64,000 nucleotides of DNA from Galdieria sulphuraria. Lineage: Eukaryota > Rhodophyta > Bangiophyceae > Galdieriales > Galdieriaceae. The stretch's first letter is position 1. Every line of letters begins with the position of its first letter. The position numbers and the translations under genes are program-made. Location of the stretch: positions 62,001 to 126,000 of the forward strand of contig NW_005178467.1 in assembly GCF_000341285.1 (NCBI RefSeq). The letters are read 5' to 3'. The notes beneath the pieces are model-generated. The model had not been told where the DNA came from. It did not search any database and worked only from the letters and a program-made list of their open reading frames with translations. Below, piece after piece: positions 22,737-32,097 of the stretch.

Positions 22737-23999
22737 ATGAGTTTGAGTTGGTTGCGCTCTATTTTTGTTTCACCTTTACTTGAAAGTTTGAACTATTTTG
22801 CTACTCAAGAGCATTTTACTTTTGCTGGTGACACATCCATACTACTTCTGAAACAAACCCAGTCTCGCAAACATGCGTTTGTAGTAGAAGTAGATTTGAA
22901 AGCGCATACACTATGGATATCAGACGGGTCTTTTACTGTTAGCTCGGTCATAACGGAGGAGGCTGCACGACACTTGGAACAGGATTCGGAGTATGTCAGT
23001 GTGGCACAACTTCGTTTGGGTGAGATTATTTTACGCAAGTTTGACTTGGTGCTTGAGCATTTAAAGAACAACTGGAAACCTAAAATAGTTATTCATCAGT
23101 TTTATTACAAAGGGGAAATATTTGCTCCATTGGAAAATAGTTTGGACTTGGAACGCGATCCTACAGTTGGTCATCTGATAGAAACGTTTTCCAAAGTCAT
23201 GTTAGAAGTGGGTAACTACAAAAGAGAAGCAGTGTTTCTTTTGTCTGGTTTATGGAAACAGGCATTCGAGTCGTCTAGAAGATGGAGACGGTTTGCTACT
23301 TGCAATGATATTTTAAAACTGGGCAAATTCGTGGAGGAAACGGCCTTTCACCAAGTTGAAAACGGAGTGGAAAACAGTATACCGTCATTCTCACCATGTT
23401 ATGATGGAAAACCAGTTTCGTCCACAACGATAAAACAAGAATGCTATGAACTGAACAAGGATGATGATGAATGGGTGACAATGATGGCAACAGCTCAACC
23501 CAATTCTCAGTCATTCTTTTCTCCAGAGTCTCCACCACCATCATCCTTTGAAATTCAAGAAACCAATGAAAATGACGACACTCAAAGAGTTCAATCTGCA
23601 AACGAATCATGGACCCACGATGGTATCGACCAATTAGAGGAATATGAACATCTCGCAAACATTTCGACCAACTTGAGCCATTTTCCCGATGGTAAAGAAT
23701 ATCTTACACAACGTTTACAAGAACGTCAACTTTCACAACCATTTTCTGCTTTTCGTTCAGAGGTAGATATCTCACCTGTGGACGATATCTTGTCGAAACA
23801 ACATCATTCTCAAAACCTAGAGATAGTAAAGGTATTTTCTATGCATATCCATGACTCGACTGATCCAAACCAAAGCGAGTTCAAAGAACAGAAAAAGATT
23901 TCTTCGATAGAAGAGTTGCTTGAAGAAAGGGAAAAGTGGCTTCGTTGTTCTTCTATCTACTCATTATTGAATCCTAAAAAGAGAAAAACCATTGCATAG
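22737..23999 (+). CDS. Unassigned protein with a candidate TPP1-like OB fold
   Basis: Single exon, 420 residues, not firmly recognised. Roughly residues 1-125 look like a small beta-barrel: MSLSWLRSIF, ILLLKQTQ, HTLWISDGSFTVSSVITEEA, LRLGEIILRKFDLVLEHL, PKIVIHQFYYKGE. The order Trp-helix, strand, (L/V)SDG..(S/T)V..(V/I)T.EA, then a Gly-led strand and a final V-containing strand, matches the OB fold of telomere protein TPP1/ACD. The segment from about 135 to 200 is mostly helical; the rest is acidic, Ser/Pro-rich and low in complexity. No membrane segment or signal peptide. It starts 80 bp after the tRNA-Thr. Other OB-fold families remain possible. Confidence 0.6.
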   Translation: MSLSWLRSIFVSPLLESLNYFATQEHFTFAGDTSILLLKQTQSRKHAFVVEVDLKAHTLWISDGSFTVSSVITEEAARHLEQDSEYVSVAQLRLGEIILRKFDLVLEHLKNNWKPKIVIHQFYYKGEIFAPLENSLDLERDPTVGHLIETFSKVMLEVGNYKREAVFLLSGLWKQAFESSRRWRRFATCNDILKLGKFVEETAFHQVENGVENSIPSFSPCYDGKPVSSTTIKQECYELNKDDDEWVTMMATAQPNSQSFFSPESPPPSSFEIQETNENDDTQRVQSANESWTHDGIDQLEEYEHLANISTNLSHFPDGKEYLTQRLQERQLSQPFSAFRSEVDISPVDDILSKQHHSQNLEIVKVFSMHIHDSTDPNQSEFKEQKKISSIEELLEEREKWLRCSSIYSLLNPKKRKTIA

Positions 24000-31995: not shown

Positions 31996-32000
31996 AAAAA
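31996..32000 (-). terminator. Pol III terminator of tRNA-Gln
   Basis: Five consecutive T on the minus strand, beginning 10 nt after the 3' end of the tRNA-Gln gene. Confidence 0.7.
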
Positions 32001-32009
32001 GAAATTTTT

Positions 32010-32097
32010 AGGTCCCACCGAGAATTGAACTCGGATCTACAGATTCAAAGTCTGTCGTGTGGGTCAACAACGTTTCTAACCATTACACCATGGGACC
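32010..32097 (-). tRNA. tRNA-Gln (TTG) with a 16-nt insertion (ectopic intron) in the D-loop
   Basis: Acceptor GGTCCCA/TGGGACC is perfect, the anticodon stem-loop is ACAGA-CTTTGAA-TCTGT (anticodon TTG), and the T-arm is CCGAG-TTCAATT-CTCGG. Between the D-loop GGTTAG and the D-stem 3' strand CAC lie 16 extra nt (32060-32075, AAACGTTGTTGACCCA on the coding strand). Removing them restores the eukaryotic consensus GTG-TAATGGTTAG-CAC and a 72-nt tRNA. No intron sits at the canonical 37/38 site. D-arm introns of this sort are known in nuclear tRNA genes of Cyanidioschyzon. Possible helices: GGTTA with TGACC, or GTTGT with ACGAC. A clear bulge-helix-bulge was not established. Confidence 0.9.

Follow-up and report, generated by a model that had tools for sequence, protein, structure and literature searches.

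Introns in the D-loop that carry bulge-helix-bulge (BHB) motifs are described for Cyanidioschyzon merolae of the class Cyanidiophyceae (PMC3978253 and PMC4090602; original work Soma et al. 2007, 2013, as cited in PMC3978253). Such a motif consists of a 4-bp helix between two 3-nt bulges that carry the splice sites, and in canonical introns it is the anticodon bases of exon 1 with which the intron pairs (PMC4090602). The nucleomorph of Guillardia theta has tRNA inserts of 3-24 nt, the excision of which was confirmed by RT-PCR (Kawach et al. 2005, via PMC4090602). For yeast, recognition is described as a ruler mechanism that measures from the mature domain of the tRNA (PMC3978253). Galdieria is the earliest-diverging lineage of the Cyanidiophyceae and its split within the class is estimated at about a billion years ago (PMC13353863). 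For Galdieria sulphuraria tRNAscan-SE gave 82 tRNA genes, and ectopic introns are not mentioned in the part of that paper covered (PMC10496412); a search of the literature on Galdieria, made largely among papers outside subscription, likewise found no report of them.

The gene described here lies in a 64,000-nt stretch of G. sulphuraria contig NW_005178467.1, hereafter the window. It is very probably the nuclear tRNA-Gln(UUG) gene of this species, interrupted in the D-arm by a BHB intron that Sen2/Sen34 removes before the exons are ligated, and it is probably the only such gene in the nucleus.

The interrupted tRNA-Gln(TTG) gene of the window

The gene is located on the minus strand and matches the RF00005 model at more than twice its gathering score of 29. 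Its parts are as follows.

32010..32097, minus strand: tRNA-Gln(TTG) gene, precursor of 88 nt (Rfam RF00005, 62.2 bits, full-length model match)
32076..32097, minus strand: exon 1 (22 nt), tRNA positions 1-22 (sequence; cloverleaf with the insert deleted)
32060..32075, minus strand: intron AAACGTTGTTGACCCA, 16 nt, at 22/23 (sequence, BHB listing and folds; the tRNA-Gln(CTG) gene L063 is cut at the same site)
32010..32059, minus strand: exon 2 (50 nt), tRNA positions 23-73 (sequence; cloverleaf with the insert deleted)
32046..32048, minus strand: anticodon TTG (loop CTTTGAA in the spliced fold)
32080..32090, minus strand: A-box-like TGGTGTAATGG, wholly within exon 1 and uninterrupted (by eye)
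32022..32030, minus strand: B-box-like GTTCAATTC in the T-arm, uninterrupted (by eye)
31996..32000, minus strand: T5 run, a likely Pol III terminator, 9 nt past the gene end (sequence)

With the insert deleted, the sequence adopts a complete cloverleaf at minimum energy (ViennaRNA), its stems measuring 7/4/5/5 bp, and a single junction yields this mature sequence (slide count 1). The anticodon loop reads CTTTGAA, which makes the anticodon TTG. The initial annotation had placed an interrupted tRNA-Gln(TTG) gene and its 16-nt insert at exactly these positions, stated that deletion of the insert restores the consensus D-arm of eukaryotic tRNA-Gln and found no insert at 37/38, and all of this is borne out by the model match, the spliced fold and the intact anticodon loop. 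Its assignment of the insert to the D-loop needs correction, as by standard tRNA numbering the insert separates position 22 from position 23, on the 3' strand of the D-stem. Compared by eye with the A-box and B-box consensus, the gene has the signals expected for Pol III, namely stretches resembling the two boxes and a T-run.

The unspliced 88-nt precursor folds at minimum energy into a cloverleaf with a lengthened D-arm (-30.5 kcal/mol) and is more stable than most shuffled versions of itself (z -2.54; 2 of 200 shuffles equally stable). Programs that search for tRNA genes may misname interrupted genes, as ARAGORN does here: it locates the gene and calls it tRNA-Trp. Elsewhere in the window, a 420-aa ORF (22737-23999, plus strand) adjoins a tRNA-Thr gene and gives a weak match to the beta subunit of telomere-binding protein (21.0 bits, below the cut-off of 26.6).

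A DNA search of the host assembly (12.05 Mb, 102 contigs) with the spliced window sequence found just two tRNA-Gln genes, one with anticodon TTG and one with CTG, and both are interrupted. The initial annotation had stated that a second, uninterrupted tRNA-Gln(TTG) gene, together with a lack of mature RNA from this locus, would make the locus a pseudogene; no such second gene is among the matches of this search. The tRNA-Gln(CTG) gene (L063) carries an 18-nt insert, AACAAGAATTGCAACCCA, at the same 22/23 site; the two inserts have common edges (AA...ACCCA) and different interiors. This locus scores 60.5 bits when RF00005 is run on the locus itself, and was missed in the genome-wide RF00005 search, in which 63 of 593 candidates were scored. 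Recurrence at the same site in both tRNA-Gln genes is stronger evidence of something beyond chance than the fold of the precursor. Viral contigs were also searched for the interrupted Gln pattern and contained none.

Interrupted tRNA genes across the assembly

At least 49 non-plastid tRNA genes were seen in the assembly, 35 of them intact and at least 14 interrupted, by 16 introns in total, so that the window gene is not the single oddity for which it had been taken. The 49 comprise 44 of the 64 matches from the RF00005 genome search together with five further loci (L063, L084, L087, L091 and L107); the 20 matches on contig C36 (158 kb), which was taken by inference to be plastid DNA, are left out. 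The census is incomplete: that search scored 63 of 593 candidates, and for one T-arm pattern 100 of its 169 places were listed, of which 20 lying outside known genes were examined. Some of the anticodon and identity assignments were made by eye.

Introns are found at 14/15, 15/16, 20/21, 22/23, 37/38, 55/56 and 59/60, and D-arm introns occur in 11 and T-arm introns in three of the 49 genes. The 22/23 site is used in the Gln(TTG), Gln(CTG), both elongator Met and the Arg(TCT) genes, the Val(TAC) intron lies between 20a and 21 (20/21) and the Gly(GCC) intron at 15/16, while two Glu(TTC) genes (L053 and L099; G000:C7, 242 and 266 kb) have 18-nt introns at 14/15. Two genes contain more than one intron. 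The tRNA-Tyr(GTA) gene (L087; G000:C11, minus strand, 108465-108875) has introns of 30 nt at 15/16, in the D-arm, and of 41 nt at 37/38, and the tRNA-Pro(AGG) gene (L107; G000:C41, ~99.6-99.7 kb) has a 26-nt intron at 14/15 and a 15-nt T-loop intron at 55/56; all four carry a strict BHB in sequence. Two Lys(TTT) genes (L052, G000:C9:152738, and L100, G000:C45:104903) carry differing T-loop inserts of 18 and 12 nt, respectively, at 59/60, and Arg(TCG) is interrupted at 37/38. Outside the anticodon arm the inserts range from 12 to 30 nt over six sites.

No intact copy of any of the 11 interrupted isoacceptors was seen among the 49 genes, and Gln, Tyr and elongator Met occur among them in interrupted form only, so translation would hardly be possible unless the inserts were removed. 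Since the affected isoacceptors are seen in no other form, it is very likely, judging from the gene sequences, that the interrupted tRNA genes are functionally spliced.

Further features of individual genes may be mentioned. The 14/15 introns of the Glu genes split the A-box region, as do those of Pro at 14/15 and of Gly and Tyr at 15/16, and a continuous A box may be unnecessary for transcription. The Arg(TCT) gene (L045; G000:C13:30859-30945) has one acceptor-stem mismatch (6/7 pairs) in addition to its D-arm intron. The two elongator Met genes (L050 and L051) share an identical exon 2 and 3' flank over the ~100 nt compared and have unrelated 5' flanks, as if a recombination or conversion event had stopped within the tRNA gene. 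Very similar 18S rRNA stretches lie at most ~11 kb from the ends of three contigs (L085, L088 and L090 on C4, C13 and C19), which looks as if rDNA were situated near chromosome ends or were breaking the assembly there.

The incomplete census contains no gene for initiator Met, Ser(TGA), Ser(GCT), Leu(CAA), Leu(CAG) or Pro(TGG). For initiator Met, all 17 of the 17 places matching a T-loop pattern were checked and none is a convincing tRNA (model R1), and a plant sequence used as query returned no match, an empty answer that proves nothing; for Ser(TGA), a Ser(AGA) query yielded no Ser gene beyond the four identified before. A covariance model of permuted genes (37/38-type), run on 42 loci, gave six matches with E up to 1, all at genes that are read as linear, and no permuted tRNA gene was found in these loci.

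Bulge-helix-bulge motifs and the predicted splicing pathway

Cleavage of a BHB falls after the second base of each bulge. In the window gene the motif is made up of four elements, in which a slash marks the splice site.

32078..32081, minus strand: exon side of the central helix, GGUU (G18 G19 U20 U20a), pairs 0.99 each (BHB listing)
32062..32065, minus strand: intron side of the central helix, GACC (AACC in Gln(CTG)) (BHB listing; ViennaRNA)
32075..32077, minus strand: 5' splice-site bulge AG/A (BHB listing)
32059..32061, minus strand: 3' splice-site bulge CA/C (BHB listing)

The helix GGUU:GACC, in which exon 1 pairs with the 3' end of the intron, consists of three Watson-Crick pairs and one G-U pair, all four with a pair probability of 0.99 in ViennaRNA, and exactly one junction in the gene gives a strict BHB, which is the junction picked in the initial annotation. 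In the minimum-energy fold the helix grows to GGUUAG:UUGACC and the last intron base joins the D-stem, and therefore the bulges, although rightly placed in the sequence, are partly closed in this fold and not strictly 3 + 3. Taken in the window gene alone the motif is not significant (p ~0.10 with the junction fixed; 0.59 in a loose dinucleotide test). ViennaRNA folding supports the predicted window helix, and the general BHB claim rests elsewhere.

Two exon-intron pairings had been proposed earlier, along with a doubt as to whether a standard BHB serves for recognition. The pairing of GGTTA with TGACC includes the central helix and stands, while that of GTTGT with ACGAC is absent from the predicted fold, on which ground a non-BHB recognition structure was rejected. 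The doubt itself is met in the sequence by the strict motif, present in 15 of the 16 introns, this one included, and retains some force in the partly closed bulges of the predicted window fold.

For each intron all junctions that give a valid mature arm were enumerated and then checked for strict BHB geometry. The exception among the 16 is the Lys(TTT) intron of L052, which may use a relaxed BHB. With dinucleotide-shuffled introns and the junction left free, 3.6 strict motifs would be expected (P = 3e-11). All ten introns whose junction was judged to be fixed without recourse to the BHB carry the motif, compared with 0.61 expected when the mature sequence is held fixed (P = 2.5e-13), a figure to be read in the knowledge that the 'independent' label was assigned to these ten after the motif had been seen and that the same introns first suggested it, the geometry being prior knowledge. 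Counting one gene per tRNA family, 8 of 8 have a strict BHB (fixed junctions, P = 3.5e-11).

The junctions of Val, both Glu genes, the Tyr D-arm and both Lys genes were picked with the BHB in view. Two strict solutions exist for elongator Met L051, Gly, the Tyr D-arm and the Pro D-arm, and the one kept is that whose mature arm lies nearer to the usual tRNA. A Glu(TTC) junction at 6/7-8/9 was rejected in favour of 14/15, which restores the usual D-arm and gives a BHB, and a Tyr D-arm junction closer to G18G19, set by eye, gave way to 15/16 on the same grounds.

Between paralogues the helix varies in a manner that keeps its pairing. The elongator Met copies differ by a compensatory pair (CGGU:GCCG versus UGGU:GCCA), and the helices of the two Gln genes differ by U-G versus U-A. 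In ViennaRNA folds each of the four helix pairs reaches a probability of 0.5 or more in only 9 of the 16 introns, and the lowest values are those of Lys L052 (0), the Pro T-arm (0.03-0.04) and Tyr 37/38 (0.05-0.08). Several of the spliced sequences, for example Glu, Arg(TCT) and Val, though not Gln, form no cloverleaf at minimum energy, which makes minimum-energy folds a poor guide here.

The genome encodes two proteins with a tRNA-intron endonuclease domain, Sen34 (63 bits to PDB Sen34) and Sen2 (50 bits to PDB Sen2). A 236-residue reading frame of the Sen34 gene is 100% identical to G. sulphuraria Sen34 and 72% identical to that of Galdieria partita. A Sen54 N-domain candidate narrowly exceeds the threshold (24.2 bits, cut-off 24) in a stretch with two stop codons, which may mark an intron, and RtcB is encoded as well (549 bits). 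Sen2, Sen34, the Sen54 candidate and RtcB would be expected to process the window tRNA. The earlier suggestion of a Cyanidioschyzon-like ectopic intron served by the same splicing machinery thus looks right, the expected enzyme class (Sen2, Sen34, RtcB) being encoded.

It is proposed that Pol III transcribes the 88-nt precursor by way of the intact A and B boxes and terminates at the T5 run. In the precursor, exon bases 18-20a (GGUU) would pair with the intron sequence GACC to form a D-arm BHB with the bulges AG/A and CA/C. Sen2/Sen34 would then make a single cut in either bulge, so freeing the 16-nt intron, a ligase, for which the encoded RtcB is a candidate, would join exons 1-22 and 23-73, and the spliced tRNA-Gln(UUG) would be used by the cell.

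Three other accounts of the locus can be weighed against this pathway. If the insert had disabled the gene, leaving a pseudogene, an intact tRNA-Gln(TTG) elsewhere would have to serve translation. At 12.05 Mb in 102 contigs the assembly may indeed be incomplete (17.8 Mb is given for the genome of G. partita), and the RF00005 genome search, with its 63 of 593 candidates scored, did miss a tRNA-Gln(CTG) gene to which the model gives 60.5 bits at the locus. The DNA search with the spliced sequence, however, is the one best suited to intact copies and gave only the two interrupted genes; moreover, the stems are intact once the insert is deleted, nothing seen by eye disrupts the A box, the B box or the T-run, and with 11 isoacceptors interrupted in like manner it is hardly possible that all are pseudogenes. 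A pseudogene is therefore very unlikely. Rather than being removed, the insert could be retained in a tRNA that functions with an enlarged D-arm hairpin, which would agree with the stable fold of the precursor, a cloverleaf in which the D-arm is lengthened (-30.5 kcal/mol). Yet the inserts outside the anticodon arm, at six sites and 12 to 30 nt long, vary between near-identical copies, retention at the T-loop sites 55/56 and 59/60 would wreck the T-loop, and the recurrence of the BHB would be left unexplained, so that retention appears extremely improbable.

Removal could also take place independently of any BHB, as perhaps happens with the very short G. theta nucleomorph introns, many of which have no defined BHB (PMC3978253) and are nevertheless excised according to RT-PCR (PMC4090602). 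The weak statistics of the window BHB when considered alone and the lack of a strict motif in Lys(TTT) L052 would fit such a mechanism. Against it stand the other 15 introns of the same genome, which carry a BHB, and the paralogue pairs that preserve the helix by compensatory change, and the prospect that it operates here is exceedingly slim.

Comparison with known disrupted tRNA systems

Canonical introns at 37/38 are expected to be handled by the same class of enzyme and also exist in Galdieria, in Arg(TCG) and Tyr; a yeast-type ruler would not be expected to cut at the 22/23 site of the window gene. In archaea, mainly Crenarchaeota, non-canonical intron sites include 22/23 and 59/60 and the motif has the same 4-bp helix and two 3-nt bulges (PMC4090602), but the Galdieria gene is a eukaryotic nuclear one with a Sen2/Sen34-type enzyme. 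The nucleomorph of G. theta, an enslaved algal nucleus that is red-algal in origin, shares the D- and T-arm inserts (PMC3978253, PMC4090602) and differs in that many of its introns lack a defined BHB (PMC3978253), whereas in Galdieria 15 of 16 possess one.

A more far-reaching interpretation of these data, which in our judgement stands at even chances, is that BHB-dependent disruption of nuclear tRNA genes is an ancestral and essential trait of the whole class Cyanidiophyceae and not a quirk of Cyanidioschyzon. It holds that Galdieria needs D-arm splicing for its tRNA-Gln, tRNA-Tyr and elongator tRNA-Met, that Sen2/Sen34 reads a BHB anywhere in the cloverleaf, and that some of the isoacceptors missing from the census (initiator Met, Ser(TGA), Ser(GCT), Leu(CAA), Leu(CAG), Pro(TGG)) reside in further disrupted or permuted genes. 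Given a divergence of about a billion years, the presence of ectopic introns in Galdieria implies that such disruption either goes back to the ancestor of the class or has arisen repeatedly. Galdieria offers a second lineage for studying how the Sen enzyme of a eukaryote came to read the BHB at many places in a tRNA, and one for which genetic tools exist, as transformation of G. partita is reported.

The closest resemblance is to C. merolae, and is drawn from published descriptions rather than from gene-by-gene sequences. Both have cyanidiophycean nuclear tRNA genes with short ectopic introns in the D-, anticodon and T-arms that form BHB motifs (PMC3978253), and in both a gene may contain several introns (PMC9602550). 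The C. merolae intron sites 14/15, 37/38 and 55/56 also occur in Galdieria, and the permutation junctions 20/21 and 59/60 of C. merolae are intron sites in Galdieria (PMC3978253, Table 1). The tRNA-Gln(CTG) gene is permuted in C. merolae (PMC3978253), whereas that of Galdieria is linear with an intron at 22/23. Overall, it looks as though Galdieria possesses a disrupted tRNA system of the Cyanidioschyzon type in a second genus of the class.
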